Below, one piece after another: positions 17,354 to 48,060 of a stretch of 64,000 nt of DNA. The translations under genes were made by a program, and so were the position numbers. The stretch is taken from contig NC_083381.1 of assembly GCF_031755915.1 (NCBI RefSeq), forward strand, positions 8,072,501 through 8,136,500, in the 5' to 3' direction. The notes under the pieces are model-generated. The model did no database searches, was not told the origin of the DNA, and was given only the letters and a program-made list of their open reading frames with translations. Source of the DNA: Ziziphus jujuba (taxonomy: Eukaryota; Streptophyta; Magnoliopsida; Rosales; Rhamnaceae). Each line of letters starts with the position of its first letter. Position 1 is the stretch's first letter.

Positions 17354-17399
17354 CTATTAAAATGCTTCCTTGACCATATAAATGCCTCAAGACTATAAA

Positions 17400-18468: not shown

Positions 18469-18518
<50 letters not shown>

Positions 18519-22092: not shown

Positions 22093-22242
22093 TTTTCCTG
22101 TTTCACTAATCAGTATAATTGATAATAAGAACCTTATGGAAAGATTTGAATATTTACATTTGTTTTTCTTAGATGCATGAGATAGTAACAATATTCTCCA
22201 TATGTATACAATTGATTTCAGCATGCAAATTATTCGTAGCCA

Positions 22243-22430
22243 TCCTTTGCGCACTATGATGAGCAAGGATAGACAGGTATTTTGCAGTGATGATATTAGC
22301 CACCCTCCCCATAGCCAAAGGATAATAGTCTAGATTTATCCATCCTATAGTAGCTAAATTGAGCGAAGGTAGACAGGTATTTTGCGATGATAGTATTAGC
22401 CACCCTTCCCTTAGCTATAGAATGGTAGGT
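22243..22430. repeat. Imperfect 100-bp tandem repeat (unit 1)
   Basis: Two adjacent copies share 'agacaggtattttgc' followed by 'gatattagccaccctccc' or a close variant, offset by 100 bases (motif starts 22261 and 22361). The same pair lies in unit 2 at about 47870-48060. No function is apparent. Confidence 0.6.
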
Positions 22431-23342
22431 TATTTAACATCAGCACCTTTGGGACACTGAAAAGGCTACATGCAAGTTTCTCTTCTCCCCCTCCATCTTT
22501 TGTCAAGTAGTGTTTAGAATGCCAAACATCACTCATCAACACTGCATTGTATGGAGTATTAGGTGTTTTTATACTACAAGTATATGCTTTAAATAATTTA
22601 TTTATTTTTATTTTTATTTTAATTGATACCATTATTCTTAATATTATTAATATTGTTCAATCTTAATATTTCAGCATCTATTTATCATCATCATCATCAT
22701 TTATATGATTGCTTTACTTATTATCGTAAATGATTTTATGGAGTTAGGAGTTCATGTGTAACATGGTAAAGTAGTTGGAAAGTTCATACAATATCGATGA
22801 TAAAATCCTGATTAGCCTTTAGGCAGATGGTTCAGCCTTCGGCAGGTTTTTCAACCTTCAGGTAGGTTACTCAACCTACTTATCAAAGTAATGAAACTTT
22901 AGAGTGTTGTATACATATTCATATATGTAAAATGTATATTTAGATACATATGTCTGTATTTATATTAGTAGTGAATGGTGGTGATGTTTATGGGAATTTC
23001 AATTATGATGTTAACAATTTAATTAATGTATTATTTTTCTATATCTATTTTGTTTTATTTTATTTAATGTTATCTTAAAATTTATTATTTCTTAGAAGTA
23101 TATATTTAACAGTGTATACTTCCTCGAAATGCTTTGATCCTAGTATGGACTTGAGGGCATGTATGCTGTAATATTTGAAGTGTTGCAAATTGTAGAATTG
23201 TAGAAAGTAGAAAATGTGGTATGGCTATTAATATAAAATTGTATTTTCTTTCTAAGGTAAAATTTTGGGGAAAGGACACCTTTTAGGAGAGATTCTAACA
23301 GATTATCGGTAAAATATCCGGTGGAATTTCTCTACTTGAGGC
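22431..23342. other. AT-rich stretch without a gene
   Basis: Contains a (CAT)n microsatellite near 22687 and short 'ttcagcctt'/'tcaacctac' repeats near 22830-22880. It probably belongs to the retrotransposon remnant that follows. No coding region is supported. Confidence 0.5.
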
Positions 23343-23835
23343 TATCCTAGAGTTTTGTGGGGAACCTTAGGAGGATTCCTAACAACAGAGGTAATTGTAA
23401 AATTACTTCCACCTACATATGGCAAAAGAGTTAGAAGTTTTCTAGTACACATTGGATTTTATAGAAGTCTTATAAAAGAATTTCCTAAAATTTCTAAACC
23501 CCTTTGTAATTTGTTGAATAAAGATGTGCCTTTTGTTTTTTATGATAATTACATGCATGCTTTTAATGTTTTGAAAGAAAATCTAACATGTGCCTATTAT
23601 TTTGCCCTATATTAGAATTTAATATTTGTACTAATGTGCGATGGAAGTGAATATGCTATAAGTGCAATGTTGGAAAAAAGAATAAAGGTAAGATACATAT
23701 TATTTATTATTCTTCAAAAACTTTGAATAATGCTCAATTAAATTATGCTACTATTTTAAAAATAAATACTTGCTATTGTTCATGCTTTAGATAAAAAGGT
23801 AGTAGATAATTTAGTGGGCGATCATATTTCTAGGT
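23343..23835 (+). pseudogene. Athila/Tat-like RT thumb and RNase H fragment (unit 1)
   Basis: The frame at 23355-23615 contains 'RSFLVHIGFYRSLIKEFPKI' and 'KPLCNLLNKDVPFVF', which match the reverse-transcriptase thumb of plant gypsy elements of the Athila/Tat type. Beyond a stop, 'CDGSEYAISAMLEKR' (RNase H) follows, then 'YCSSKTLNNAQLNYAT'-like traces and 'DNLVGDHISRLEW', the end of RNase H. The catalytic palm is missing, with stops and frameshifts throughout. It is directly joined at a (GA)n run to a gag fragment of a different gypsy lineage. The same fragment occurs in unit 2 (about 48985-49470). Confidence 0.75.
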
Positions 23836-23856
23836 TAGAATGGAATAAGAAATTAA

Positions 23857-23890
23857 GAGAGAGAGAGAGAGAGAGAGAGGGGAGAGAGAT
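23857..23890. repeat. (GA)n microsatellite
   Basis: Run of GA repeats at the join between two unrelated gypsy fragments. In unit 2 the equivalent run is interrupted and a solo LTR is inserted right beside it (49522). Confidence 0.9.
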
Positions 23891-24378
23891 TAAAGTGTGT
23901 TTTCTAGATGAAAAGGTAGAATTAGTGAACCTGATTGACGGCAAGGAAATCAGAATCTTTATGCCCGGCCAATGCCTAACAAATGCTACAAATGTCAACA
24001 ACTGGGACATCGATCCAATATGTATCTGATGAGACCCTGAACTGATATGGTAAAAGCTGCAAAAAAATGGACAAGAGGATTATGATGAAGGTGAGACTGC
24101 CGAAGTAGATAAAAGTTCATGTAGTATGCAATATTTGAAAATATTAAATTGTTTCAAGGAGGGAAAAAAAAAAGTTCAGAAACATAGACAAAAACGAACG
24201 ACGAATCTTCAACATCACAACACTTTTAAAACATGATGCACTATCAACTAGAAGTTATGTGGTGTGATTATTGATAGTGGAAGTAGCGAAAATTTGGCCT
24301 TGGTAAAGTTTTTGAAGTTCAAGACAGATTGAAGCATCTCACCCATAACAAAATTGCTTGGATCATCAAGGAAGCTAA
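23891..24378 (+). pseudogene. Gypsy gag zinc knuckle and protease start (unit 1)
   Basis: One frame near 23960-24025 reads 'PMPNKCYKCQQLGHRSNM', a retroviral-type zinc knuckle whose last Cys is lost. Near 24260-24310 another frame reads 'GVIIDSGSSENLALVKFL', a pepsin-like protease active site with DSG intact. The 3' half of the protease is absent because an LTR composite begins at 24379; unit 2 keeps that half (52800-53100). Several stops are present. Confidence 0.7.
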
Positions 24379-27300
24379 TGTCAGGACCCGTCCAAAGTTC
24401 CTCACCGGAACCCTAGACAAGCCCTGATCCCAGGGAAACCTTACCGGACCCTCCTATGGAAAATCCGGCAGAACCTCCCTTAAGGGATGGACTTACCACA
24501 ATTTCCTGCACTGAAAACACACTTCTATAACGTCCCCCTTATTCCTCCCACAATACTACAAGTTGGTTCCACAAATTTCAGCACTTCAAAATAAATACAG
24601 TAATCCAGTGCATAATAAATACATAAGTGTCCCATACAGTATACAGAGCTTCATGAAGTACTGCTAAGTATAGAATACGGCAAGAGTGAAAGAAATATTA
24701 CAACTGCAATAAAAGAAGAACAGGATACTTCACGAACTAAAACAGCAATGAAGATCAAGTCCGCTCCGAATGAACACCGACACCTTGGTACCTAGAGGAA
24801 CAGAATTTGAAAATATGAGATGCTAATCATCTCAGTGAGTGACCCTATCTACTATACAATATAATACCACAGTAATAAGTAGATAAATAATAATAAATTG
24901 GAAATAATAATTTCTCTCAAAACCCTTACAATTCTCTCGGTTGGAAAAGTTTCCCTTTTAAAACCTTTTCACAAAACCCTTTGTTCATATTCCCCGAAAA
25001 CCAAGACATCAAATAAATACCAGAAATGGTAATAATTATAATTTTAATTCCAATACAGTTTCAAAATATTTAATTTTTAAAATCACAGTTCTGAAAATCA
25101 TTTGATGCACCTACTATATACCAGTGGCTCCAACAATACCCAGCGTCCCAAGGTACCACCAGACAGGAGGTTATAAAAAGAAACCGGCATACGGTCGCGT
25201 GGCGTCCCACTGCGCCGCTGCTAACTGGTGTCCCGGCCATGGAGGGGTGGCCTACCCTCATCCGATGGCAACCACAGGACAACCTCATAATATCACCTGC
25301 GCGCTACTCACACCCTCTTGCGCGCTAATCACATCCGTGTGCACAATATCCATATCACATATAAACAGAATACCAGTACGTGCACGGTGCATCTAAAAAT
25401 CATAAAATCCACATATTTAATTTATATATCAAATTTCACATTTTGCATAAACATAGCGGGTTTATCCCATCCGCTTGAACCCGGAAATTCTCCACAATTT
25501 CTTTATAATCAACACCATAAATTCCATGATTTTCAAATCCACCAATTCAAATATTCACATTTTTCCCAATAGCATAAATAATTTCTCGAAATATAATAAT
25601 TAAATCTCATAATATTCCATGGGCATATTTTATAAAAATTGGAGTCACCAACATAAACAAATATTTTCCTTGAAATATTTGAAAATCAACTCATGCCCAA
25701 TTTAATGTTAAAACCACAAGAATTTCAAAATTCTCAAAACCATAAAATAATTTCACATGGCATAAATTTATATCAGGCATACTGTCTTTAGTCGAAATAA
25801 ATTCACCAATAATTCCACAATAAATCAAATAAATATTTGGCACATAGAATTTAAATTCCAAATATTCAAATCACACATAATATTCGCCAATTAAATTCCC
25901 AAAATTAATTTGAAGGTGGGTCACTCACCTTAAGCACGTATCTCAATCAAGATCCTCCGTAGGATCGACTCCGCTACTCACACGTGCACCTAAAACATCC
26001 ACAGTACACCAAACCACAAATATTAATATTTTAATCGGGTAACTCCCAAATGGGTACCCGGGGAGCGAACACCAAATGACATCTAAAATTTAGGAGTCAT
26101 ATACCGAATTGAAGCTCGAGTGATGAGGATCACAGATTCGGTCTTAATTTCCGGTGATCGGACCCGAGGTGGTCGGAATCTCACCGGAAAGCTTTCGGGT
26201 TTTGACTCCATAATTCTCCCAAACCGTCGCGAATTGGCAAAAACGGATGCCGGATTCGGGTTCAGGAGGTCGAACACAGTCTGGAGGGGTTGGCGGTGCA
26301 ACTGGGTACTCGCCGAAACAGTAACTTCCGGCGAGCCGCCGGGTCACTGGCAACCGTCACCGGCGGCGGCGCGTACGGTGGCCGTTGGCTGAGATTTTTT
26401 TGCAGATTTGTAGATCGTGGGGAGAGGAATCCAACGGGACCGGCTGTGAGGCAAACGGAGGCCGGACGGCGGAGAAATCGGGGTTTGAAGAATTTCGGCC
26501 CCTCGCCGGAAAAAGCTCTGATCCCGGCTCGTCGGTGGTCCGGTGGCCGTGAAATTTGGTGGGTAGGCCGGACTTGAGGAGGTGGTGAGGGCTGGCTGGC
26601 GCGTGTGGCTGGAAAATGGCCGGAAATTGGTCAAACGGCTGTGGAGGGAAAAATCGCCGTCTATCTTCGCCGCCTCGATCCGGGCGCGTCCGGCGGCCAA
26701 TGGCCGTGAAATTTTGGGGTTTTGTCGGAAATAGGGAGGGGCTTCTTGCTGGCCGGCGCGTGTAAGGTGGATCGGCTGGAAAATTTGAAAAACTCCTGTG
26801 GCCGGTCGGACTCTCTCTCCTTTATCAATTAATTATTATTTATTTACTTATTTATTCCCATTAAGCAAATGTGCCTTAAGTATCGTTGTTTTATAATTGT
26901 ACAGTAGATAGGGTCACTAACTAAAATGATTAGCATCTCATATTTTTAAATTCCGTTCCCTTAGGTCCAGGTTGGGAGACGTTGATCGTCCAGGGCAAGC
27001 CCGACGTCTCAGTTCATTGTCGAAAGTCCAAGAAGCATTTCTTCCCTTTTTCCTCTCCATCTTGTATTGCTTCCTTATCTGTCATTGTATTAATTCCACA
27101 TTTATTTTTATAATGCTCTGTATACTGTATTGGACATTTAGTTGTTATTTATGCACTGATTTACTGTTATTCATTTGAAGTGCTCCAAATTTGTGGAATT
27201 ATATTGTAGTAACGTGGGAGGAATAAGGGGATGTTTATAGAAGTGTGTTTTCAGTGCAGGAAATTTTTGGTTAGTCTTACCCGTAGGGGAGGTGCTGCTG

Positions 27301-27387
27301 GATTTTCCGTTGGAAGGTTCGGTGGTATTTCCCTGGGATCAGACCTTGTCTAGGGTTCCAGGGAGGAATTTTGGACGGGTCCTGACA
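24379..27387. mobile_element. Head-to-head composite of two partial LTRs (unit 1 only)
   Basis: The left arm (24379 to about 26820) starts 'tgtcaggacccgtcc' and follows the plus orientation of the 3 kb LTR family into its GC-rich block. The right arm (about 26821-27387) is the opposite orientation and ends 'ggacgggtcctgaca'. About 500 bases at the two ends are inverted repeats of each other. There is no matching 5-bp duplication at the outer ends. Compared with unit 2, about 326 bases (52880-53205) are missing at this place. Two opposite insertions followed by a deletion between them explain this best. The frames in 25124-26700 are LTR sequence. Confidence 0.8.
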
Positions 27388-27907
27388 CAGATGATATGTC
27401 AACTTCTACTTTCAAAACATCCAATTTACGCCCTTCAAGTAAATCGCTATGGCTTAACTCGAGGACGAGTATCTTTTAACTGGAAGCATCTGATGTAGGA
27501 CAATAATTATGACTTTATTTACCATAATTTAATTTTCATTATTTTTAGTATAATTTACCTTCATGATCCTTAATTTTAGGTCTTAATGTCAATTAGAGTC
27601 AATAAAGCAATTCCTAAATTAAGTGCTATTAGTTGGCCCTTAATTAAAGGATAACAGATTTTTTTTTTTTTACTTGTTTTGTTTTTTAGAGTTTTCTATA
27701 TAAAGAGGCATTCTAGAATGTTATTTTTATCATTCAGAATACTAAAAAAATAAAAAGTTTGTTTTCTCATTACTGAATTATGTACTTTCTTTATTATTTT
27801 TTATTTGCTTCCGCTTCATCAAATTTCGACTTTTTTTTTTCTATTTTTGAATTAACAGTGATATTGTTTAGCGCTGTTACTCTGTCAGTGCGGAATTTTG
27901 TGTAACA
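27388..27907 (+). mobile_element. 3' end and LTR (0.41 kb) of a gypsy element, unit 1
   Basis: 27388-27493 contains a 'ctcgaggacgagt' stretch of the kind found at the end of plant gypsy pol just before the 3' LTR. The LTR runs from 'tgtaggacaa' at 27494 to 'gtgtaaca' at 27907 and has a TATA motif 'ctatataaagagg' near 27697. It probably belongs to the same element as the gag/protease fragment at 23891-24378, with the rest of pol deleted. Unit 2 equivalent: 53206-53727. Confidence 0.65.
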
Positions 27908-30900
27908 CAAACCATTACAAGTTGGCAATTGGAAAAACTTATCTCATTGCCAAAAAATATTAATCTAAATGCTTTCGTTCAATCAAAACTCGCTTCCACA
28001 GTATAAGTAAACAAAAAGTGCCATGCATTGGACTTAGGCTATGTTTGGTGTGGTGGAGAAATAAAATGATGGAAAGGAATGGATGGAAAAGTGGAGGGAG
28101 AGATGATGTCAAGGTTATTTGGTTTGGAGTAAAAAAGGGAAAGATGGAAAGTTGGATGGAAAGTTGGATGGAAAACTTTCCATACGAACAAATCCCTCAT
28201 AAATTGGAAGGATTGGAGGGAGGAAAGTTTTCGTTCCTCTTTCTTTACTCAATATAATAGTATATTTTCATGTATCATATACTAGTCCGGTATTTTTATT
28301 ATTATTGTCATTACTATTATTATAATATACTTCTACCTCCATATTATTTTATGACATTCCCCAACAAATGAAAGCAAACTAAAAACAAATAAAAACAATT
28401 CATAAAAGAAAAAAAAATTACCTTCCGTTGCCTTTCAAGAAAATGCTTATTTAAAGTCATTTAGTTTGACTAATAATAAATCACTTACCCTTAGATTGTC
28501 CTAGCTTACCAGTTAAAGGGCTTTTTCTTTAAATTAGCTAAAGTACATTCAAGTGAATCACATATATAAATAACTATAGTTTCATCATTACAACTCAATT
28601 CTAAGTTACATTCATAGATTTTAAGATTAGACTTACTAGTAACTAAGGCTTAATTTGGTATTGCTGTAACTTTTAAGAAAATCAATATTAACTACGTTGC
28701 AGAACTAATTTTGCTAAAGAATTAGTCGGTTAAGTGTTTGTAAACTATTATATCATAATGGCTGTATGATTCAAAATTAGTATTGAAGTGTTTGGTAAAT
28801 AATAGTGTTTAATTGTTACTAGGGTTTATAAAAACTAAAAAAACTAAAAAGTATATTATTTATTATCGTCTCTTTACGTGTAAGATTTGAACTTTTTTTT
28901 TTCTTTTTTTTTTCTTTTTTTTTATCTTTCCTCCATCTTTCATCCTTCCTATTTTTCATTCCTTCTGTCAAACGAAGATGTAGTATTGAGATTGATCATG
29001 AGAATTCATTCAGGAGATCTCATATTGGCTCTTTCAACATCATCATCATTGTCATCATCAATCCCAGTTTTGCAAGAATTTCTTCCCCAGTATTTGGCTA
29101 ATCAACGCCTCTCACCTGTGGATAAAAGAATTAAAAAAATAAACCAATTAAATGTTGCTAAACTATATGTCACATCATTTTTGGTAAATAAATTTGATAA
29201 ATATTTTAGTAACTCTAACATTATTGCATTCAATATTAGCCAAAAGAAAAACATATTTTAACTTGATTATATATCAATTCATTATAAATAAATAAATCAA
29301 AATAATACTCTTGTTCCTTTAAATCTCTAAAGACATCTAAATTTGAATCTATACTACTTTTTTTTTTTATTTTGCAAATATATTATTTTCTTCTAAATAA
29401 AAGCATAGAAAATTAAAAAGAAAAAAGCTACAAGTTATTGATTTCCTTATATGGTAGAAATTATTGATTTCCTTATGTGGATGGAATGGAATTAGGAAAA
29501 AAAAAAAAGGTAAAAATTAAAAATTGGAAGTTAATATAGACCAGAAACAAGGATTCCAAATAAAAGTCCAAAAAAAAAAAAAAAAACCTAGATGTTATGA
29601 TATCCTTGTGGATGGAATGAAATTGCTTAAAAAAAAAAGAAGTAAAAAGTAAAAGTTGGAAGTTAATATATACGAGAAACAAGGAAAAGAAAACTTATGA
29701 TTTTTTTTTTTATTGTCTTTGTATGGTAGATTTTTGGTTATAAATTGGATGAAATATGTGTTGTTCAACTAGGTTTAGATGAAGAGATAATTATAAATTT
29801 TATAAGAAAATATTTTGTTAAAAATAAATTAATTAGGGTCCACATAGAAAAGAAAAAAAAGAAAAATTAAAGGAATCCTAACTTGATTTGGAGACTACAA
29901 AAAGAAATTAAAAGGCGTGTATTCAATTTAGAGTTTAATGGATTTACAATGAGTTATAGATTTTAAAGGATATGATGGATTGTTATGGAATTGTATTTAT
30001 TGTAATTTTTTTTTTTTAACTACAACACAAAAATAGACAACCACTAATAACAAACATTTTCAATGGATCTGTTTAAAAATCATATTAAGCTGATACGGTA
30101 AGAAAAGAAAGCTAACACTATCAAGGTGACTATCTATATTTGAAGCTTTGTTAAACATTTTGAAGTTTTCTTAAAATCAAAATTTTTCTTTAAAATGTCA
30201 TTTGTTTCCAAAAATAAAAAAATAATAATAATAAAATATGTTTAATTAATTAATAATCATATATAGCTTTTGCATGTTACATATTCAAACTCTTTACCTT
30301 AATGCATTTGCATAGTTGCAAATTCTTTAATATTTAATATTTAAAATTTTTGGTCATTTTTTTTTTCATATTTTGTCATTTTATATAGTTTGGTTTCCCT
30401 CTAAAAACATTTTAAAAAAAAGTATAATATATATTTATTTGTTTAGGTTTATTGGTCTAATATTATACACAATTACTTTTTAAATATTATTTAATTACTA
30501 TTTATGTGGATATCTCATTGCTTTTAAAATAACCAAGTGAAAAATACAATATCAAATTATAAAAAAATACTTTTTATCTAAGAAAATAAAATATTAATAA
30601 ATTAATAAAACTACACAAATACCATCCATTAACAAATAACAAAAATTACATCATACAATTCATCAAATGAACTACCTTATACATGATATTAACGTTACAT
30701 ATGCACAAGTCAATTAATCATTAATATGAAATTTTAAACTTTAACATTTGAAAGTGTTGACATATATATATTTTTTATTTCCATAAATTATAAAACTAAT
30801 TGTCCATATTGAATGCCTATTGATTTAGAGCTTTAAATTTTTGATATAAGACCGGTTCAACTTTAAATTATAAGATTTAGAATTTAAAATTTTGGCTCAC

Positions 30901-32568
30901 ATAAATTATTTATGGATATTATTTGTCAATAGTAAATTGACCATTAATTTAAAATGAACAATTTCAATATAAGACTATTTAAATTTTAAATTATACGTAT
31001 CACTACAATAGGTAATTAATATAAGCAATTAAAGAAGATCATATTGAAATATCAATTATGATATTGAAATGTTAAAATTTAAAATTTAAAAATTTTTACC
31101 CACAAAACAAATATTATTGATCCCATACTTTTAAAAACGATATTCTTAATCAAGTAAAAATTAAGATAATTAGTTATGGACAAACACTCTCCAATTAATA
31201 AATTATAAAAATCAATTATTTCATAAATATTAATTAAATACCATTTATTTATGGTCAATATTATGATTGGTAATTACACTATATTTAATTTCATTTGGGT
31301 TTATAAATATGCCAATTATTTAAGGCATGTTGGTCCAAAACACCCAAATTACGTTTTTTATTCCTCCTAGTATTAATAAATTTGGAAATTAATTGTGGAA
31401 TTAAAGAAGCCTGAATAAAGCTATTTTTATTTTTTGAAAGGTAATAAATGAATCTGAATAAGGTAAATAATATCATTTTGAAATAATAATTATTTTTTAA
31501 AGCAAATGAAACTTGAATAAGGCTAATTATTTATTTTGAAAATAAGTAATTTTTTTTTTACCTTAAATGAATAAGGGCATAAATAATGCTAAGTTCATCA
31601 TTTTTCAAATTGATTCAAATAATGAAGGAAAAAGTTTTGATTTGGGATAATGATTAGAGTTTAGGTATTTGAGAAAAAAAAAATTCATCATTCAAAATGA
31701 TATTTGTGCTCTTATCAAGTTTTAAAAATGTTTGTCTACAAATAAACAATAGGACAAGTGATCTTTAAACTCCCAATTAATTAGACATACAACTATAGAA
31801 CAATGTTTCCTCCTTAGTTTCAATTTTTCTATAATATTTTTTATTCCCTAAAAAATTATTGTTATTTTTTATTATCTCATTTAATCGAGTAAATTTATAT
31901 TTAAAATCTTTTTCGTTATAAGACATTTAAGAATTTTTAATTTATTTATTCTATGCAAATTAGTACAATTATTTGATTTTTGTCATCTTACTTTGCATAA
32001 TTTCTATTATTTTATTATCAAATTTTCTTTATTTCTTTAATTGAATTTAAAGTGACACGCCAACACCCATTAAAAGAGACATCCAAATTGTTTGATTTTT
32101 GCAAAACTACCAAAAAATATCAATGAAAATTATAAAATTAATACAAACTATTAAAGATCTTTAGTCTTTACTCATAAAAAATAACATAATTAATTAATTT
32201 GTTTAGATTTGATTATAATTAATTATTATAAATTATTTTCAAAATCATATATTGCGATTATACATATCGTGCATCGTACTGAATCGACAATAGTATTATA
32301 TAATATGTAGGTTATGTACTTTTCAGCCCGTATCATATATATATATATGTATATATTTTTTCTTTTGTGCTTTTTTAAGTAAGCCTCATATCTTAGTTTT
32401 TGTGGAAGTATCATAACTGTAATATTAGAGTTACCAAAAAAAATTGTTTTCCAAAACAGTATAACTATCTATAGCCTAAATATATGTGAATAAGTAAAGT
32501 GAAAAAGGAAAAAGGAAAAAGTAAGGCATTTACCAAATAAAGAAAATAAACGTTATAATGTGCTCGTC
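27908..32568. other. Long AT-rich region upstream of the peptide gene (unit 1)
   Basis: Purine-rich segment 28030-28240 with repeated 'ggatgg' units, possible small DNA-element remains starting 'ttaggctatgtttggt' (28032) and 'taaggcttaatttggt' (28643), many A/T homopolymers and a (TA)n run near 32336. A 91-codon frame near 28999-29261 is listed separately. Nothing else is supported as a gene. At 31750-31755 lies 'caagtga', the empty site of the unit 2 solo LTR. Confidence 0.5.
28999..29261 (+). other. Short open frame shared by both units, doubtful gene
   Basis: The frame starting MRIHSGDLILALS contains a serine run and ends 'ISQKKNIF'. The unit 2 copy (55055-55330) is open over the same length. 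By eye three base differences fall in the frame and two are synonymous. There is no recognisable domain, no obvious promoter, and the sequence around it looks like decayed repeats. Listed only because the frame has stayed open in both copies. Confidence 0.2.
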
Positions 32569-32576
32569 TATATATA
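32569..32576 (+). promoter_or_regulatory. TATA box of the peptide gene, unit 1
   Basis: TATATATA ends 62 bases before the start codon, leaving room for a 5' leader of about 30-40 bases. It is kept in unit 2 at 61503-61510, although a 2-base deletion lies between it and the start codon there. Confidence 0.6.
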
Positions 32577-32638
32577 TGTCAAAAATGAGTACACTCTACA
32601 CGCAAAATCAAAGCAAAGCACTGTATATCTGACATATA

Positions 32639-33810
32639 ATGGAGAAACAATATTCATTTAAGTTGGCTTTCGTTGTGATCTTCTTGGTTATGGCGTTTGG
32701 TTAGCCTCTTTTGAATTTGCTTTACTTATTTTTTTCTTTTTAACAATTAATGAGTTTTTTTTTCCTTTTTTTTTTTTTCTGTTTTTTGTTTTTTACGTTT
32801 TCTGGTGGTTCACCTGTATTATATATACAATTAATAAAACAATTTTTGATCACATTGGTTTACATTTAATTATTTTTATTTTTATTTTTTGAACGATGGT
32901 ATAATTTTAAAAACCGATAAACTAGTTACTTTCTGTATATAATATTAACTATTTTTTCAATATTTATAGAACTAATTAATCAAATGTATTAATTTTAATT
33001 AGATGAGCTTTTTTTAAATTAAAAAAGTTATCATTTTATGATGTTGCAATATTAGTTAAAATATCAAATTGCGATGTTATATTAGTTAAACTATAATTTT
33101 TTATATGATTTACAAATTAACTTGTAAAATAAATTAATAAATTAAAAATATAACAAAGTTTTGAAACAGATAATGTGTAGTAAATATAAAAAGATCTAAT
33201 TGGTTTTTTTCAATTATAATATATTTGTTAAGGTACTTTAATTGCTATTGGTATACAGAGGCCGCTTATGGTGCAGACGTCCGCATCTTGTTATGATGTG
33301 GATCTTTTTAAAAATAATGATTTTTGAAGAAACCGTCATTAATATTATATACAAAGACGACGGTTTCAAACCATCGTCTTTGAAAAAGTCTGCACAATAA
33401 CAAGATGCAGATGTCCACATTATAGAATTTGATTCGGCTTATATCCATACGTTTATATATTATATAGATACATAATTTTTTTTTGAATTATTTTTTTTTC
33501 TTACAATATGTGGGCTACTATCATGTTGATGGGAACCTGGAAACCTGATTATATATATATATATATGTATGTGTGTCTGATCATGTACTATAGAACATTA
33601 CTATGTATACAATATTTGTTGGATTGTGGCTAATAAAAACAGTGGCATACACATATATACTTGGAATCTGCAGGTGTAATATTGTCATGGTTGCCGGTGG
33701 TGGAAGCTCGCAATTTGCTGCAAAGATGTTCATCTAGTGCGGACTGTGCTCCTATACCTCCCTGTTTTGCCATCTGTGATGGGCACAAATGCATACCCGT
33801 TTGCAACTAA
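32639..33810 (+). CDS. Small secreted six-cysteine peptide, copy 1 (two exons)
   Basis: Exon 1 is 32639-32699 and exon 2 is 33674-33810; the 974-base phase-1 intron is bounded by GT (32700) and CAG (33671-33673). The product has 65 residues. Residues 1-20 read MEKQYSFKLAFVVIFLVMAF, a signal-peptide core that continues into exon 2 as 'GVILSWLPVVEA'; cleavage is likely after Ala32. The predicted mature peptide of 33 residues has six cysteines at 39, 45, 51, 55, 60 and 64 (C-X5-C-X5-C-X3-C-X4-C-X3-C), with segments 'RCSSSADC', 'CAPIPPC' and 'CDGHKC'. Three disulfides and secretion are inferred. The layout resembles plant defensin-like and nodule-specific cysteine-rich peptides, but I do not recognise the family. 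Its role could be defence, symbiosis or signalling. It is too short and too split for a simple ORF scan. Confidence 0.85.
33271..33419. repeat. Fold-back element in the peptide-gene intron, unit 1
   Basis: Arms 33271-33309 and 33382-33419 are inverted copies at roughly 80 % by eye (left arm contains 'cgcatcttgttatgatgtgg', right arm 'aataacaagatgcagatgtc'). A second tight hairpin at 33352-33382 pairs 'caaagacgacggttt' with 'aaaccatcgtctttg'. This is probably a small MITE. It lies in sense within the intron, so it would be in the pre-mRNA. Kept in unit 2 (62202-62350). Confidence 0.75.
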
Positions 33811-33872
33811 TAATATATTCCTGCGTCAAATAAGCATGCAATCCCGCACTAATAGGCTATAATATTAATATA

Positions 33873-33903
<31 letters not shown>

Positions 33904-33935
33904 ATAACTATACATCTATATTTATGGTTAGAAAT

Positions 33936-33964
33936 TTACTTTTCACAATATTTGTGAAAAGTAA
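33936..33964. other. Perfect 13-bp hairpin downstream of the peptide gene, unit 1
   Basis: 'ttacttttcacaa' and its exact inverse 'ttgtgaaaagtaa' are separated by 3 bases, 125 bases after the stop codon and about 65 bases before a possible polyadenylation signal AATAAA at 34030-34035. It is likely within the 3' untranslated region. Conserved in unit 2, where the stem extends to 15 bp. Confidence 0.6.
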
Positions 33965-34029
33965 TTATATTTATCTGTTTTTAATATTCTATTTGTATCT
34001 GATTGAAGTGAATTTTACTACCCATGAAT

Positions 34030-34035
34030 AATAAA
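34030..34035 (+). terminator. Possible polyadenylation signal, peptide gene copy 1
   Basis: AATAAA 220 bases after the stop codon, the clearest canonical signal I see in this AT-rich tail. Equivalent in unit 2 at 62980-62985. Plant signals are loose, so the true site may differ. Confidence 0.3.
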
Positions 34036-34886
34036 ATTGTGCAAAAATATTAAATAATTTCTTCGCTGTCCTGAGTTTTTGTCAGCAATCTTGTTTAAAG
34101 TTAATTGCTTAATTTTTCTCTAATCAAAACTGACTGTTCCAATTTAAAAAAGGGATTAATTTTTTTTTTTTAAAAAAGGAAAATTCGTCCAAAATCATGA
34201 TTTTGCATGTTTGCAACCTAGTCCACATTCTCGGCCTACCATGAAGCAAGTATCTCATACGTACGCAGATTTAGTATAGGCCAGGAGGCAAGTGAACCCC
34301 TCAAATTTTTTCTCCTTTTTTATAAAAAAAATATATACATATATATATATATATATATTCACATATTTATTTTTTAAAATCAATTTTTTTAAATTATAGG
34401 TAGTTCCTCCTCTCAAAAATTGAATAGTATCCATTTAGTTTTCCTTTTAGAAAAATATTTTATTTTCTTTATATCTATTAAGCATTTTTTTTTTTTTTTG
34501 TAAATTATGATTCTTAATTTTTTTTTTCCCTTATAATCTACCTTTTCTGCTGGAAATAAGCGAAACTGTTTATATCATTACTCATCCTAAACTTTTCTAT
34601 CTTTTCTAGTCATATTGGTGTCTGTAAATTTATTAGTTTAACTAACTTTTAGTTTTTTTTTTTTTTTTTCTAACTTTGCTTAGAAATTAAAGGTTCTTAC
34701 ATTACCATTGCTTTAAAAAATATCTTTTATTACACAATAATGCTTCTAAACTGAACTTTCGTATCACCGCTGATTTGATATGCTATCAACTTCATTACCA
34801 TCATGATTAGAGCGTCTTCATTATACATTGAAGGATTTTTTATCCACCAATTTGGATATCTTGAACATACGGTTGCAATACTCAAT
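34036..34886. other. AT-rich end of unit 1, nothing recognised
   Basis: Poly-T and (TA)n tracts, with no coding potential. It ends at the tandem junction near 34887. Confidence 0.5.
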
Positions 34887-35389
34887 AATATTATTTACTA
34901 TAATGACATGTTAAATTCAATGATTTTTTTTTTTTTTGTGAATATGTTAAATTCAATGATTGTATTCTATTGCATAGGACTTTATTAAGGTAAATTTTCA
35001 ATAAATGAGACATCGCTATATATATTATATAGTTTTTTTTTTTTCCATATGTATGCGGTTGGAAAATTGAATTAGAATGTGCAAGAAATAATCAGTCTAC
35101 CATCAGATTGTTCTCAAATAAACTATATATTTGTAATCTCTCATGAAAAATATTATGTTTTATAATATAAACCATTTTAAAATTGTTAATTTATAACATT
35201 ACCACCTTAACAAAATCATTACGTGCTAAATCTGCATGGTGAAATGGTAACTTAGTCTTTAATATATCATTATGGCTTGCATTATAAAGTGGAAAATAGT
35301 TTCCCTTATATCAAAATTATATATAATAGTATTTATATATCTGGCTGTATATAATAGCATTATAAGTGGTAATTTATCTAACATCTTGT

Positions 35390-35937
35390 TTTGTTTGGTA
35401 ATTAGTTAGACTATCGGTGACCAATTTACTTGGGTTTGCTTGTTTCTCTATCTTTTAGAACCAAATTACGATTGGTCATTGTATATCAATACTAGAGACC
35501 AACATATTGGTTCCTAGTATCAATTTTGGTGACCAAAGCATTTTGGTTGCTAAAACTCCTTGATTTTATGTTTTTTTCATTTTTTCTTAATCATTTTTTA
35601 ATTACTTAGACTATTAGTGACAATATTTTTGGTAGCTGATACCTTTTTTTCGGCGACCAACTTGTTTTGGTTGCTGATAGGTCATTTTCTCGCCCAAAAA
35701 AAGGCCGGAATAGTTTCCCGCTCTCATGTTCAACAACCAAATGATTTTTGATCATTGAAACTTAGAATTAGAGACCAAAGTAATGGTCGTTGAAAGTGAA
35801 ACACTGTTATTTTACTATCTGAATTACCAAAAATTTCAATGATCAATTTTTGGTCACTGATCGTCTATTTTAATGACAAAAATGTTTTGGTCGCTAAAGG
35901 TTAGTCACTAAATCCCTTTTTTTTTGTAGTGCTATTA
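35390..35937. repeat. CACTA right subterminal repeat array, unit 2
   Basis: Same array as at 16930-17353, ending 'tttttttttgtagtg'. It keeps extra motif copies near 35565-35685 that are missing from unit 1. The left half of the CACTA element is not part of the duplicated unit. Confidence 0.75.
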
Positions 35938-35969
35938 AAATTCTCCCCTGACCATATAAATCCCTCTAG

Positions 35970-37533
35970 ACTATAAACCCACATATAAGCAAATACTTGG
36001 ATAAACTTAAATAACCGTAAACCAATAATTTAAATTTTATAAAACTGTGGATCGATATTTAAAAAAAATATACAATGAATAAAATTATTTTAAATAAACA
36101 TAAGCATCTAAACATTTTTGAATTTTATAAAATACCAATTAATAATAATTTGTTATATAACACACTAAATCCAAATTTAATTGTAAATAAATATATGTAT
36201 CATTTATTTTACCTCAAAATATAATTTAAAAAGTATATATCACTCACAGTACTAACATATGCTCATCCCTTGCTCTACTATGGGGTTCTCCACAAGTTAG
36301 TCACATGCCTAACATATACTATAAATACTATTTAAAGATCAAATACATGATCCATGAAGAGTAGAATGGGCTAAATATTTAAAAATTTACTTTTACTGAG
36401 TTCTCAAAGATGGACGCTAAGGAAGTCCAGCCATACAATAACCATAAATGAACTATTGTCCAAATATTTGAGGTTTTCTTATTTATGCTCGATTTCATGA
36501 AATTGAATATTTCAATAACCTTTATTAATCACTATGAACCTAAACGCGATGAGAATTCTCAAGATAAACTTCCCACACAGACCAATGTTTACAGTAATTG
36601 CTAAAATTAGCTCAAAAATAGTAACATTTTAAATACTCATCTATGATTGGCAAACTATATACCAAATGAAAGTTTGCAAGACAAAGTTTGAGAATACTTA
36701 GCTCAAATTAATCAAACTTGATGCTGGTGGCTGGAAAATGGTCTTGATTTTTCGACTAAATTTCAAATCATCATATCTCTCAAATAGTTAGGACCTCAGG
36801 AAAATGGAAGCCATATATTCAAAATCAAAGGGTCAAAAATAGGAGGAACAAAGATATGGGTCGGGCTACATCTATTGGAAAATAGCCAAATCACCATGGC
36901 TTTGCTGGCCTAATCTTGGCTCTTCTAGTGGCAGTTAGTCATGAAATTTGACGGCTGAGGTTGCCAGTGCCTGGGCTTTGAATATGGCTGAAGCGTGTTA
37001 GAGTTCAATGGTGGGAAAATGGTCAATTTTGGCCAAACCATTGAGAGAGAGAGAGAGAGAGAGAGTTCTGTGTATGGAGACAGAAAAAGAAGAAAATAAA
37101 AAAGAAAAGAAGTTGGCCACGTGTCACATGTAGATTGGTGACACATGGCACCCATCAATGATTTTTTCAAACATCTGTTTACATGCTTTTTAATAAAACT
37201 ACCAAGTAAAATAAGTGCTAAAAAAATAAATGCACCTTGACATAAGTCAAGGAAATGATTTATACAAATAAAAAGTCAACCTTAGCCTTGCTCAAACAGT
37301 CCAGACCTCACTTTGATCTAACCATAACTTTCTGATCTAAATTCATATTTTAGCTTGCTACTCGTCTACGAACTCGTGATGATGAATAATTCGCAATAAT
37401 ACCCTGGTCAAAATGAAAGTCTAGCCATGCCAAAAAGTCAACTATGTTACCCACTCGGTCAACTGTAGTCAACTTCGATCAAAATTGGTCAAAAATCAAA
37501 TTCTGAGTGTTTTCTCGAGTTGGGATGTTATCA
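35970..37533 (+). mobile_element. Old diverged LTR, 5'-truncated (unit 2)
   Basis: Counterpart of 17400-18980, ending 'gggatgttatca'. The GA microsatellite at 37045-37064 is shorter than in unit 1. Several percent of bases differ from unit 1 by eye. Confidence 0.6.
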
Positions 37534-38882
37534 TTGCTCTGATTCTAGTGGATCTAACCCACACGGCCACCGCTTTCCAACTACCCATCATGCTAGCAAT
37601 GCCTTAGTGCCTTTCAATTGCCAATAAAGTTGTCCACGTGTTGGTGAAAGGCCATGGAAACAGGCAACGTCCACATCATCCGATTCCTAAATTTCAATCA
37701 TTTCAAGTCAAGGCCTAAGTTCTTTCGCCCTAATTTGGACCTTTTAAAGTTGATGGGGACTTCTATTTAACTTAATTTGAGCTTGTTTAAGGCATACGAA
37801 ACAGACAACTTTTGCAGCATTTTTCGATGGAAAATCCATCCATCGTCGGCCACTTTTGCTAAGTTAAGCTAAGCATTTCTAATCCTTGTATTTCAAGCTT
37901 TTATTTGGTATATTGCTTGTCCATTATTATTGAATATTTAAGATTTTGCTATTGTTGAAGTAAAGATTTCGTATAAATTTTAGTTTGGCTAATAATTCTT
38001 CTACCATTTTGGATTTATGCTCCTATTTGTTATTCTGCTTTCCCTATTGTATTTAGAATTTATAGCCAATGCTGTTTTTAAATTCCTTATGAGTTTATGT
38101 GAAAACCAACTTAGCCTATGAGCTTTGCATATGAAGAGAACTAGGTAATGAAGTTGACAAATGGTAGATAATGACTATTGTAGTAACACTCCAATAAAGC
38201 ACCACATTATTCCTTAAACCTTACTATAAGATTTTTTTCATAAAGAGCAGCACTTCAGTAATAAAATAACAGTAGTAACAAGGAAAAAAAATAAATAAAT
38301 ATAGTAATCCAATGCAGTAGTAATCAGAGGCGACTAAGATTTTCATCCAGTACAGAATTAAGACAAATACTATGAATTATGAAATGAGTATTACAAGAAA
38401 ATAAAGGAAGAAAATGATCTCCTTGGAACACAGCAGTGGATAGAAAGCGTCAAACTCACCGTCAGATGATCAGTGCCTACTAAACCTGGACCTAAGGGAA
38501 CATATTTAAAAACAAAAAAATAATGAGATACTAATCATCCTAGTTAGTGATACCCAACTACAGAAACAAAATATGATACTATAAAATAAAGTCAATTAAT
38601 AATAAAAAAATAAATAAGCAAATAAATATATAATTAAGGAAATAGATAAATAAATAAATAAGAAACTAAATTTTAAGAATTTTCTCTCAAAACCCTTACT
38701 AATTTTGAAAGAACCCATAATTTTTTTATTCCCCAAAAATCAAGAAAATAATTAAAAACATAATTCACTTAAAATTAAAATAACAATGAAAATTATTTGG
38801 TAAACAAATATTAAATTTAGGAAAAATAAAATAAAATCATAAAAAAAATTTATATAAGGGAAATTTTAATATAAAAATTAAT

Positions 38883-40621
38883 TGTTAGGTCTAAAATATT
38901 GTTGATTTGATGCCATATTTATAGCTTAATATTTATTAGTTTGTGTTAATTTGTTATGGAAAGATATTTAATTATGTATTTTTCTTAATCTAGGTTAAGG
39001 AGGAAGAATTTCAAGAAAAAAACCATAAAAATGGACACCTTAGGTCAAATTATGGTGGGAAGCAAGATTTGAGCTCGAACGAATTAAGCATTAAAAAGAT
39101 TCCAAAAAGATACCTTGAAGATTCTATAAAGATTCTATCGGGAATTTCATGATGGAAGTGGATGTCATATGAATCATCACAATTTGATGATTTCAAATGT
39201 CTCATTATTTTTTAATTTCAAGGTGTGAGCAAAAAGATATCATCATTTAAAGTTTGGAATTTATGAAAAGGAATATTCTAGTTAAATCTCCACCATTGAT
39301 CAAAAAGAGGGAATCAATGCAATTTGAGGGCCAAGATAAAAACAAGTGGCAATAATTGGTTAATTTATCATTAATGAGACACATGTCATGTCACATGCTT
39401 CATTAAGGGTAAATTAGACTAATTAACTATTCTTTTAGGAGGAATTAGATAAAAGGAAAGTATTGGAGAGCAAGTAATATGAAGTTTCCTTTTTACACAT
39501 GAAATTCATCTAACCCTCTTCATGGCCTAAAAAAGGTATCTTACAAGACTCCCATATTGAAAATAAAGAGAGAGAAAGGTTCCAAAGGTCCTATATATAT
39601 AGCTCCCACGACATTGAAGGAAGATATACAAGTTTAGAGAGTTATTTAAGAGCTTTTAGGAGGCTTAAATAGAAACAAACCAAATTTTGGGAGTTTCTAA
39701 GATTCTCTTAAGGGTTCTAAAGTTTTAAAGTTTTAGAGTTTGATAAGATTAATTGAAGAGCTTGGAGGAAGCATAGAGATGTGGGCTTGCTTGGAGAAGA
39801 AGGCCATGACTTTAAGAGCTCTTGGAGGAGAATTTCTTCAATAGTTTTTATTCTCTTTTCCTTTCTCTTTAATTGTGAATCTTATTATGTTTAATAATTA
39901 TGGATGTTGAATTTATTTTTTCCATGAACTAATTTTCATAGCTAGAGCTATGATGTAGCCCTAACTATGAAGGTTTAATTATTTTAATATATGTTGAGTT
40001 TTATTTAATTAGTAATATGTTTTGTAAATAAATCATTGGTATGCTTAATGCTTTCATAGGCAGAATGAATGAATGATTTTAATAATATTTGAGCTTGGAA
40101 AAGGATAATATTATAGATCTCCAATGATTTACATGAATGCATAATTGATTGGAAAATAATTATGTCTCATGCCATATTATTTGCTTAATCTATGCTTAAT
40201 GAATTTTCATGATTTAATTTATAGGCCGGAAGGAATAAATTAGGTTATGTGAATGTTATCAATTGTGAGTGGAAACTACTTTTGATTAATTTTGTGATTA
40301 AGTATGGTTAACAAAATTACTAGTTAATTAAATTCACATATTTAAGTAATTAAATTAGAATAGTTAGTGGTGAAATCAAATGCCCTGTTATTCATAATTA
40401 TCAATTTAACTCTCTCTTTACTTGAAATTGATAAAATTTTAATTGATTGCTTTTGTTTAATTTAGTTTATTTATTTTCAATTACTATCTTAAATTTCAGT
40501 TCAAATATTACCAAAACCTAATTATCTTTGGTACTTAATTCTTAATCCCTTGGGTACGACAACCCTATTTTTCCATTTTGTTACTTGAAAACGATTCGTG
40601 CACTTGCGAGTTGATTTTACA
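38883..40621 (+). repeat. 5' LTR of the non-autonomous element
   Basis: TATA-like 'cctatatatatagc' near 39590. I count about 20 mismatches to the 3' LTR in the first 300 bases and fewer later, so the insertion is not very recent. Confidence 0.92.
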
Positions 40622-40632
40622 CATCAAGTTTT

Positions 40633-40650
40633 TGGCGCCGTTGCCGGGGA
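40633..40650 (+). other. Primer-binding site, tRNA-Asp
   Basis: 'tggcgccgttgccgggga' is complementary to the 3' end of plant tRNA-Asp(GUC) including CCA, 11 bases after the LTR end. Confidence 0.88.
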
Positions 40651-41030
40651 TTACGGCATTAATATTAATTCAGATTGGGTTTAGTAGTATTTTGAATATT
40701 GTTTCTTATTTTAATTTTTTTATATTTATTTCTTAGTTTTGGTTTTAGTGTTGCATGCTAGGGTTTTAATTATTTGCTTGTTTGGCCAACTTGCTTTGAA
40801 TTTTTATTACTTATTTTGTGGTACTTAAGATCAAAATTTTATTTTTAATTTATTGGTGTCTAGGTTAAAAGTTATGCCTACTTAGGGGTTTTTCTTATTT
40901 TCAACTTTTGTTTATCTTTATTATTCTCAATTTTAGTTTGTATATTATGGTTTAATTTTAATTGTTTGCTTGATAAACTTGCAATTAATTTGAACCTTTG
41001 TTTTGTTAGTGTTTTCTTTTTAGGAAAACC

Positions 41031-42331
41031 ATGGAATATCAAGCTTATAGTCGTCAACCTTATTGGGATTATGGGGTGCCAACTAGTTCTCCAAGTGAAA
41101 ATTTTATTGAGTTACAAAAGAATCTTGCTATGATGTCTAAACTCGTTGCAAATTTTAGAGTTCAAGCTGTATCTTGTGAATGGTGTGGAGTAAATCACTC
41201 AAGCAAAAATTGTCAAGTGGGGAATCCTTTTGCATTAGAAGACTCAATTGAAGACTTATCAAGACAATATAATCAAGTTGCAAATTTTGGGATTCAAGCT
41301 ATAACATGTCAATGGTGTGAGGCAATCATTTAAGTGAACATTGTCAAGTGGGAAATCATTTTGCTCCGGAAGAGCCATTCGAAGACTTTCCAAAGCATAA
41401 TTTTTATTCCAACACATATAATTATGGATGGAGTGATCAACAAAGTTATTCAAGGTATGATAATTCAGATCTTTCAAATTATCAAGTGAGCACATCTTTG
41501 ATCGAGTGTATGGAAAGGCATAGGGAAACATTTTCTAAATGTTATGAAGTGATTGGCAAGTTGCAAAATCAATATTCTCCAAGTACAAACTTTCAAGTTC
41601 AATTAGAGCAACCAATGACAACTTTTTCACAAGGATCTCAAGAAGACTTGGAAACTAACATGGAAATTACTTGTAATAAGCAAGTTGATGAATTTGAATC
41701 CTTTCAAGAGCCACATAATGATAACAAAGAATTTGAGGAACATGAAGAGGTGTCTACAAGGAGTGAAATGCAATAAGAATCTTCAATTTTGGATAATTTT
41801 AATGAGGAACACACACATGACCAAGATTGCCCACCAAAAGAAGTTTCCCAACGCACTATCACTAGTTCATGGGAAGTTTCTAATTTTTCTTCAAATTCAT
41901 TGCAAAAAGGGCTTAAGGATCATGAAGAGGATAAGTCAAGGAATCAATCAAGCCAAAATTTGGCCAAATCCGATGAGGATAAAGCTATGACCTCACTTCA
42001 AGAAGATTGCTTACCAACAGAGGCTAAATCTCAACTTTTCAAGCCAAATATTGAATTTTCAAGAGCCCAAGATGTATATCCATGCTCCAAAAATGCAATT
42101 GAGGTTGAATGCACCCCTAAAGGAGATAAACAAAGTATTTTTGGACCTAAAAGAATCCAATCTACCAAAAAGAAAGTTCAATTCATGCTTTTAGTTCAAA
42201 TTGAGACTTATATAGTACAAGGAGTTAAAAGTTTGCTAAGGCAACAAGATTATCATCATGCACAATTTCCATATCATAAGTTTGGACAATATTATGAGGA
42301 TGAAATCACTTACATATTTAATCCAGATTGA
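41031..42331 (+). pseudogene. gag-like frame with duplicated zinc-knuckle module
   Basis: The first frame (41031-41333) starts MEYQAYSRQPYWDYG. Residues 49-61 form a zinc knuckle, CEWCGVNHSSKNC (C-X2-C-X3-H-X4-C). A second module, beginning again with 'VANFGIQAITCQWC', follows about 40 residues later. A frameshift near 41320 cuts the second knuckle, whose remaining H and C lie in the frame of 41348-41776. A TAA at 41774-41776 then interrupts the same frame before 41789-42331. The rest is hydrophilic and acidic without recognised domains. It is probably a nucleocapsid-like protein of the element; the link to true gag is inferred. Confidence 0.6.
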
Positions 42332-44202
42332 ACATCAAAAGGATGAAGTCAAGCTAATCACTTTAAACAAGCGCTCTTGGGAGGCAACCCAAGTTTCTTT
42401 CTTTACCTTATATTTATCTATTTATTTTAGTTGTTTTTAGTTGTTTTCCTGTTTTAGGATGTTTTTGATGTGTTTTATTTGAATTCTTGCAAGGTTTTAA
42501 GATGTTTAGGTGCAAAAGAGCAAAAGATGAATGTTGAGAATTTCAAGTCTAAAGCTAGATTTTTGAAGTATAACCACCTTGAATATGCATTGGAGTACAT
42601 CAAATTGTATGGGCACGTGCCTTTCTTTTTGGATGCATGGTGTGTAGGCAAAATGCAACATGTAGGTTTTTCCCAAGTTTTCGCATTGCGAGGAACATTC
42701 CATGTCTTCAAAGGGGATTATTCTTTACCTTTTGTTTACTTTTGCTTTATTTTATGTTTTTCACAATGAGGACATTGTTCATTTTAAGTTTGGGGTGAAA
42801 AGCATGCTTTGCATCTTTTAAATCTTGTCCCTTTAAGTGTTTTTATTAGTTTTCAAACATGTTAGTTTTAGTTTTTATTTTCCTTCATTATTAAAAAAAA
42901 AAGAAAAAGAAAATTGTTTTTGTGGTGTTTTCTTAAGTACTTTAATGAGCCAATGATAAGACTATGATTGAAAATAAATTGGTTTTTAGGTAGTGGATTT
43001 GTTTTTGTGTATGCTTAAATACTTGAAATTATATTCACATGTTGTTACTTTCAATAAATTTTGAGCACATAATCAATAATGCATAATTTAGATTGTGTTT
43101 TGAAGAAGGTTTGCATGAATTAGAGTACTTTATTATTAATTGAACTCTAGAACTTGCTTGATTATTGCTTGAGGCGAAATCCTAGGTGAATGCATTACTA
43201 AGAAGATGATTTAGGCCATCTTTGTTTAAGTTTGAGCCTTTCAAGCCTACCTAAAACATTATCTTCCACTAGTACCTTATTTGAGCCTTTAGGATGCATA
43301 AAGATGTATTAGAGCCTTTTGTTCATTAAAGCACATTTGCTTACCTTTTTTGAGCCTTAAATTTCTTTTTGTCTACCTTGAGCATACTATAAAGAGAGCT
43401 TTAATTGAATTGATATGAATATATGCTTATGAGTTAGTGGGAGTGTTGAAGAAAATGGAAAAAAATGAAGTTTGGAGGTTAAGTATTTGGTGAATTTGGC
43501 TTTATTATGTATTTTTGTGTAAATTTGAGGTTTGAATGTGTAATAAGAAGAAAAATGAGGGCGTTTAGTGCAAAAGAAAAAAAAAGCAAAACAATTGAAA
43601 AAAACATATATATATATATATATGTGATGTGAAAAAGAACAAAAAATATATATACAATGAAAAGGAAAAATAGAAGATTTGTAAAGTTTATATTGAAAGT
43701 TGAAAGAAGAAAAGAAAATCTAAGAAGGAAACAAATTTTGTAAGTAATTTATTCATTGATATTTAATTTTAGCTTTCTTTCTTTGATTTATTATATCCTA
43801 TCCTTTTCTTTCTTTAGCTATATCCATTAGCCTTAACAATAAAAGCCATGAAGTCCTAATAATTTAAGGTGGTGCATTAACCTACATTAGTGGAGAGTGA
43901 TAATTAAGTCAAACATATGGTAATTCATACTTTATTATCAATCTTTAATTCTTGTAAATTTATTCAAGCATATGATAATTAAGTATATAAATTGATTTCC
44001 ACACACACAAATTGGAAGTATCATATATGTTGGATAGAAGATAAGGTATTGAGTTACATAATTACTTTGAAACCATTTGAAAAGTCATATGTTATACAAT
44101 CTTTGAGGCACCTCATTAAACTATCTTATGTTCTTTAAAAGATTGATTTTTCTTATTCTTCTTCTTTGCTAGGGACTAGCAAATCTTAAGTTTGGGGGTA
44201 TT
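42332..44202 (+). other. 3' internal region of the non-autonomous element
   Basis: One frame (42470-42769) is open for 99 codons without a recognised domain. After it, 'ggacattgttcattttaagt' followed by 'ttgggg' resembles the tail of the element (44180-44200). The rest is AT-rich, with a (TA)n tract near 43609. No pol. Confidence 0.5.
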
Positions 44203-45941
44203 TGTTAGGTCTAAAATATTGATAATTTGATGCCATATTTATAGCTTAATATTTGTTAGTTTGTGTTAATTTGTTATGGAAAGATACTTAATTATCTATT
44301 TTTCTTAGTCTAGGTTAAGGAGGAAGAATTTCAAGAAAACAACCATCAAAATGGACTCCTTGGGTCAAATTATGGTAGGAAGTAAGATTTGAGCTCGAAC
44401 GAACTAAGCATCAAAAAGATTCCAAAAAAATACCTTGAAGATTCCATAAAGATTCTATCGTGAATTTCATGATGGAAGTGGATGTCATCTGAATCATCAC
44501 AATCTGATGATTTCAAATGTCTCATTATTTTTTAATTTCAAGGTGCGAGCAAAAAGATATCATCATTTAAAGTTTGGAATTTATAAAAAGGAATATTCTA
44601 GTTAAATCTCCACCATTGATCAAAAGAGGGAATCAATGCAATTTGAGGGCCAAGATAAAAAAAAAGTGGCAATAATTGGTTAATTTATCAGTAATGAGGC
44701 ACATGACATGTCACATGCTTCATTAAGGGTAAATTAGACTAATTAATTATTTTTTTAGGAGGAATTAGATAAAAGGAAAGTATTGGAGAGCAAGTAATAT
44801 AAAGTTTCCTTTTTACACATGAAATTCATTCAACCCTCTTCATGGCCTAAAAAAGGTATCTTACAAGACTTCCACATTGAAAATAAAGAGAGAAAACGAT
44901 TCCCAAAGTCCTATATATATAGTTCCCACGACATTCAAGGAAGATATACAAGTTTAGAGAGTTATTTAAGAGCTTTTAGGAGGCTTAAATAGAAACAAAC
45001 CAAATTTTGGGAGTTTCTAAGATTCTCTTAAGGGTTCTAGAGTTTTAAAGTTTTAGAGTTTGATAAGATCAATTGGAGAGCTTGGAGGAAGCATAGAGAA
45101 GTGGGCTTGCTTGGAGAGGAAGGCCACGACTTTAAGAGCTCTTGGAGGAGAATTTCTTCAATATTTTTTATTCTCTTTTCCTTTCTCTTTAATTGTGAAT
45201 CTTATTATTTTTAATAATTATGGATGTTGAATTTATTTTTTCCATGAACTAATTTCATAGCTAGAGCTATGATGTAACCCTAACTATGAAGGTTTAATTA
45301 TTTTAATATATGTTGAGTTTTATTTAATTAGTAATATGTTTTGTTAATAAATCATTGGTATGCTTAATGTTTTCATAGGCTGGAATGAATGAATGATTTT
45401 AATAATATTTGAGCTTGGAAAATGATAATATTATAGATTTCCAATGATTTACATAAATGCATAATTGATTGGAAAATAATTATGTCTCATGCCATATTAT
45501 TTGCTTAATCTATGCTTAATGAATTTTCATGATTTAATTTATAGGCCAGAAGGAATAAATTAGGTTATGTGAATGTTATCAATTGTGAGTGGAAACAACT
45601 TTTGATTAATTTTGTGATTAAGTGTGGTTAACAAAATTACTAGTTAATTAAAATCACATATTTAAGTCATTAAATTGGAATAGTTAGTGGTGAAATCAAA
45701 TACCCTATTATTCATAATTATCAATTTAACTTTCTCTTTACTTGAAATTGATAAAATTTTAATTGATTGCTTTTGTTTAATTTAGTTTATTTATTTTCAA
45801 TTACCATCTTAAATTTCAGTTCAAACATTACCAAAATCTAATTATCTTTGGTACTTAATTCTTAATCCCTTGGGTACGACAACCCTATTTTTCCACTTTA
45901 TTACTTGAAAACGATTCGTACACTTGCGAGTTGATTTTACA
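44203..45941 (+). repeat. 3' LTR of the non-autonomous element
   Basis: Same length as the 5' LTR and directly after the purine tract. It ends 'gattttaca' before the 'taaat' flank. Confidence 0.92.
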
Positions 45942-47869: not shown

Positions 47870-48060
47870 TAGCCATCCTTTGTGCACTATGATGAGCGAG
47901 GGTAGACAGGTATTTTCTAGTGATGATATTAGCCACCTCCCCATAGCCGAAGGATAACAATCTAGATTTATCCATCCTATGGTAGCTAAATTGAGCGAAG
48001 GTAGATAGGTATTTTGCGATGATAGTATTAGCCACCCTCCCCTTAGCTATAGAATGGTAG
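47870..48060. repeat. Imperfect 100-bp tandem repeat (unit 2)
   Basis: Counterpart of 22243-22430, with small differences. The following 0.9 kb to about 48980 is AT-rich and holds a (CAT)n run near 48318; no gene seen. Confidence 0.6.

Follow-up and report, generated by a model that had tools for sequence, protein, structure and literature searches.

A recently tandem-duplicated two-exon gene for a putative secreted six-cysteine peptide

The window, which is the whole 64,000-nucleotide stretch of DNA that was analysed, contains a two-exon gene for a 65-residue product with six cysteines, and a complete second copy whose protein is identical; neither copy has lost its frame or splice sites. 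The preferred reading, held tentatively, is that of a recently tandem-duplicated nuclear gene whose secreted cysteine-rich peptide is lineage-specific and most likely serves defence. That the gene is real and encodes a secreted disulfide peptide is very probable in its own right; given a real gene, a defence-type action has about an even chance, by analogy with other plant peptides. The host of the gene is most likely a plant, as read from gene layout and repeat content.

Gene structure

The coordinates, the GT/AG sites, the reading frame, the position of the intron within the signal part and the six cysteines spaced 5-5-3-4-3, all given in an earlier sequence-only reading of this DNA, were seen in the sequence as claimed. 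The proposed layout with a secretion signal is supported as well, including the phase-1 intron: in NCR and similar genes the only intron splits a codon after its first nucleotide (PMC12461094, excerpt). The features of the first copy are as follows.

32567..32577, + strand: TATA-like box CTATATATATG, about 70 bases 5' of the start codon, identified by eye, retained in copy 2
32639..32699, + strand: exon 1 of copy 1, comprising 20 codons and one further base, from the start codon into the signal peptide
32700..33673, + strand: intron of copy 1, GT...AG, phase 1, containing a MITE-like inverted repeat (33267-33424)
33674..33810, + strand: exon 2 of copy 1, remainder of the signal peptide, six-cysteine mature part (33709-33807) and stop codon
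34022..34036, + strand: AATAAA-containing stretch 3' of the stop codon, identified by eye, retained in copy 2

Exon 1 is 61 nt long and the intron interrupts codon 21 after its first base. About 11 signal residues are encoded by exon 2, and the first cysteine codon, codon 39, lies 18 codons downstream of the intron. Scored with approximate splice matrices, the acceptor reached 6.2 bits and the donor, which is weak, only 1.2 bits. An alternative exon 1 in poly-T (32750-32804) was possible for copy 1, was not returned for copy 2 and was rejected. The G+C content is 36% in exon 1 and 47% in exon 2, compared with 24% in the intron and 23% and 25% in the 1-kb flanks. This enrichment of the exons, together with the TATA-like box and the AATAAA in both copies, argues for a real gene. 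Two-exon layout, split signal and clustering have been reported for plant peptide families (PMC4785745, PMC9515463, PMC7864950 and PMC12461094, all in excerpt), and short two-exon peptide genes often escape gene prediction (PMC3924332, excerpt). The arms of the MITE-like repeat in the intron measure 57 nt and are 70% complementary.

Tandem duplication of the locus

The gene had been described as hidden in repeat DNA. This is correct and incomplete, in that the repeat bearing the gene is a tandem duplication, which had been missed. The array is made up of the following parts.

~16419..34884: tandem duplication unit 1, carrying gene copy 1
~34885..63838: tandem duplication unit 2, carrying gene copy 2 and extended by inserted repeats
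63839..64000: start of a third unit, interrupted by the end of the window
61571..61631, + strand: exon 1 of copy 2, identical to that of copy 1
62626..62762, + strand: exon 2 of copy 2, with one synonymous difference (TTT/TTC)

The two units are ~18 and ~29 kb in size and both carry transposons; unit 2 is the longer because of inserted repeats, including an LTR element. The segmental duplication as a whole spans 16419-64000, and substitutions between the units amount to 2.6-5.9% in the six aligned blocks examined. In a self-comparison, the initial bases of the third unit agree with those of units 1 and 2. The same end-of-unit sequence precedes 34885 and 63839, whereas the sequence preceding 16419 differs, which makes unit 1 the opening unit of the array within the visible sequence. 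With two very recent gene copies, and perhaps a third, the array offers a natural test.

The LTR retrotransposon (38879-45941), present in unit 2 only, has TG...CA ends and LTRs (38879-40621 and 44199-45941) that are 95.8% identical. The duplicated blocks flanking it, at 92.7% and 94.5% identity, are more diverged than its LTRs, as would be expected if the element was inserted after the duplication. A candidate for a third paralog on the minus strand (10489-10602) showed a signal-like stretch with no cysteine-rich part in the frames shown, and was rejected.

Peptide properties and predicted fold

Residues 1-32 of the product are signal-like and include the highest 12-residue Kyte-Doolittle mean (3.22). 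Cleavage is predicted at A32/R33, after VEA, from the -3/-1 rule as read by hand. The mature part would comprise about 33 residues, with cysteines at mature positions 7, 13, 19, 23, 28 and 32; its calculated mass is ~3.5 kDa, its pI 7.8 and its charge ~+0.8 at pH 7. Single-sequence AlphaFold2 gave a mean pLDDT of 84.5 with a pTM of only 0.46 for the 33-residue mature part, and a mean pLDDT of 75.3 with a pTM of only 0.47 for the 44-residue exon-2 product. In the model of the mature part, the strands 19-24 and 27-31 pair as a two-stranded hairpin. Searches of solved structures with the predicted models gave no match above noise. The scorpion potassium-channel toxins among the Foldseek matches had E values of 2.8 or worse against the model, which is the noise level, and no relation is claimed.

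Comparison with chance and between the two copies

The window was scanned for two-exon models with a hydrophobic first exon, a donor, an acceptor and a second exon with six cysteines near its end. Three models were returned at two exon-2 loci, those of copies 1 and 2; the 20 dinucleotide-preserving shuffled windows (2-kb blocks) yielded no model. The shuffle scan is a consistency check, the criteria having been chosen with the gene already known and the splice matrices being approximate. A looser scan of the window for an open frame with six cysteines within 36 residues returned seven stretches, of which two are the present copies; six cysteines alone are therefore unremarkable.

Among 198 coding positions, the synonymous TTT/TTC is the sole difference between the copies, with zero amino-acid changes. 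This is fewer than the 87/2970 substitutions elsewhere in the block (one-sided Fisher p 0.022), than the 591/14809 in all six aligned blocks (p 0.003; the rates vary among blocks) and than the 47/973 in the intron (p 0.0013). Much of the contrast arises because the intron diverged fast: against the flanks alone (40/1997), with the intron excluded, the difference is not significant (p 0.10). When a template of the same exon-intron geometry was slid along as a control, 15 of its 859 overlapping placements showed one difference or none. The flank-only value and these 15 placements mean that a slower change of the coding part under purifying selection is suggested, not proven. Gene conversion could also have caused the likeness between the copies. 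The TATA-like box, both splice sites and the downstream AATAAA are conserved across the copies, the box and the AATAAA as judged by eye. The most diverged 100-bp row of the intron (13/100, from 33350) falls within the MITE-like repeat.

Alternatively, the gene could be dead, or a frame that arose by chance, and have been copied passively with a recently duplicated segment. The weak donor site, the result against the flanks alone and the 15 equally little changed placements all fit such an origin, as does a search of ~5.8 billion proteins, with uncertain plant coverage and a requirement for three shared exact words, that found no relative. The frame, the acceptor and the TATA-like box are nevertheless intact in both copies with no amino-acid change, the 20 shuffles held no comparable model, and a confident fold was obtained from one sequence. 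We regard this origin as quite unlikely and prefer a duplicated gene for a secreted peptide.

Comparison with known peptide families

The Pfam search with the full protein listed two families at E of 10 or less, of which Nodulin_late (PF07127) was the only plant one. It scored 10.8 bits (E 0.67, residues 16-60) against a curated cut-off of 30.4 bits. Nodulin_late was listed for none of 10 shuffles that preserved the cysteines; one of the 10, however, scored 16.5 bits with a different defensin-like model, and Pfam scores of this order therefore carry little weight. Two further matches were rejected: LapA_dom, which scored on the signal part alone and did so also in 10/10 shuffles, and the scorpion short toxin model, which scored 8.3 bits (E 4) with the mature part alone. 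Pfam gave no family for the 44-residue exon-2 product or for a 57-residue open stretch. A text search of the literature returned no open full text with this cysteine spacing or with stretches of the peptide, a result that cannot show the family to be undescribed.

Like the NCR and late-nodulin genes, the gene has two exons, with the signal mainly in exon 1 and the mature peptide in exon 2, a phase-1 intron, a signal peptide, six cysteines in a mature part of ~33 residues and clustered copies. The product could accordingly be an NCR or NCR-like peptide, sent to symbiosomes and steering bacterial differentiation. NCR peptides are described as having four or six cysteines at conserved positions. 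Chickpea NCR13, the sole comparator, has cysteines at positions 4, 10, 15, 23, 28 and 30, a spacing of 5-4-7-4-1 (PMC11637438, excerpt); only C-x5-C and C-x4-C are shared, and three of the five loops are unlike. The NCR-like peptides of Aeschynomene depart from Medicago NCRs in cysteine number and spacing (PMC6056668, excerpt), so odd spacing alone is compatible with an NCR-like role and does not suffice to exclude one. The NCR rule places the intron 'a few triplets' before the first cysteine codon (PMC12461094, excerpt), unlike the 18 codons found here.

Five conserved promoter motifs are described for Medicago NCR genes (PMC3613412, excerpt). Their observed scores here were reached by 11, 144, 137, 234 and 132 of 300 shuffles for motifs 1-5, respectively; motif 1 is marginal, its score being reached also in 12 of 126 other windows, and motifs 2-5 are at shuffle level. 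No NICE2 site was present without mismatch. ID1-like sites, each with one mismatch, number four per 1 kb upstream of both copies, compared with a mean of 0.43 over 126 windows.

31909-32510: cluster of four ID1-like sites upstream of copy 1
60843-61444: cluster of four ID1-like sites upstream of copy 2

Apart from stretches that overlap the first cluster and include a site in the intron at 32759, no other 1-kb stretch in the window has four such sites. Two of the four sites fall inside a purine repeat, and none matches perfectly. The cluster is no more than a lead, found after looking.

Membership in the late-nodulin/NCR family, with which the sequence-only reading had compared the gene layout, is not supported: against it stand the Nodulin_late score far under its cut-off, the three loops that differ from NCR13, the place of the intron and the promoter motifs, four of the five at shuffle level. 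An NCR function retains in its favour the exon layout and intron phase, the two shared loops, the sole plant family listed (at E 0.67) and the clustered ID1-like sites, and is considered unlikely.

The gene also resembles those of albumin 1 (A1b knottins) in its two exons, an intron in the part coding for the signal peptide, six cysteines and a small secreted product. It could be a legume albumin 1 (A1b-type knottin) offshoot that lost A1a, is made in seeds and acts on insects. Short stretches of the peptide may bear some resemblance to albumin 1. Nearly all albumin 1 genes of Medicago have the intron inside the part coding for the signal peptide, and the products of this multigene family carry six cysteines with a C4-X-C5 step (PMC4785745, excerpt). 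The present peptide, by contrast, has C4-x4-C5 and no C4-X-C5 step, and no A1a subunit is present, the stop codon following after 33 mature residues. Albumin_I was not one of the two families in the Pfam list. An albumin 1 origin is judged highly improbable.

Plant defensins and defensin-like peptides share secretion and a cysteine-rich second exon with the present gene; plant defensins have eight cysteines (PMC7230169, excerpt), unlike the six found here. Jasmintides, 6C hevein-like peptides and cystine-knot alpha-amylase inhibitors, which are plant defence peptides, are similar in having six cysteines in ~30 residues. According to the excerpted sources they carry a CC pair, which is C-terminal in jasmintides; the present peptide has no CC pair. 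Further papers on related plant peptides are PMC9387825, PMC3601976 and PMC4695807 (excerpts).

The family is unplaced; for NCR, albumin 1 and jasmintides alike, at least one feature examined here disagrees with the family description. A lineage-specific six-cysteine plant family with its own framework of 5-5-3-4-3 (hairpin C-x3-C-x4-C-x3-C), distinct from those of the NCRs, defensins, albumin 1, hevein-like peptides and jasmintides considered here and now expanding by tandem duplication of a unit of ~18-29 kb, is possible, with the balance leaning against it. If the framework is truly new, it would be a fresh small disulfide scaffold in a young expanding locus that shows a plant peptide family forming; if the gene belongs to a described family, it is ordinary.

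Proposed function

Where a role is known for plant peptides of similar size and layout, it is mostly one in defence, and for this reason a defence role is the first choice. The peptide looks like a further, as yet unplaced, addition to the many defence-type mini-proteins of plants. In the proposed mechanism, the 32-residue signal peptide would be removed in the ER, and the near-neutral mature peptide of 33 residues would form three disulfides around the hairpin C-FAI-C-DGHK-C-IPV-C before export. Outside the cell it may serve as an effector of the defence type, targeting a microbe or else a pest enzyme or membrane. A cationic membrane-active mode is not favoured, the charge being only ~+0.8. 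Tandem duplication would increase the dose and provide copies for diversification. Nothing in the sequence or in the searches made here points to a target.

Reproductive cysteine-rich peptides are likewise secreted, with cysteine-rich second exons and fast lineage-specific turnover. These traits would suit a reproductive signal, such as a peptide of pollen-pistil communication or of seed development; no specific pointer to one was seen in the sequence, and we consider such a role very unlikely in comparison with defence.

Other features of the window

The window gave no hit in scans for Rfam families and tRNAs. Among 10 other ORFs of the window searched against Pfam, only one matched a family above its cut-off, a retrotransposon RNase H; this remnant of a retrotransposon reverse transcriptase lies at 5044-5544 (RT_RNaseH, E 1.6e-10). 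At 13218-13493, beside overlapping ORFs that match no Pfam family at E 0.1, a 138-bp unit is present in two perfect head-to-tail copies.
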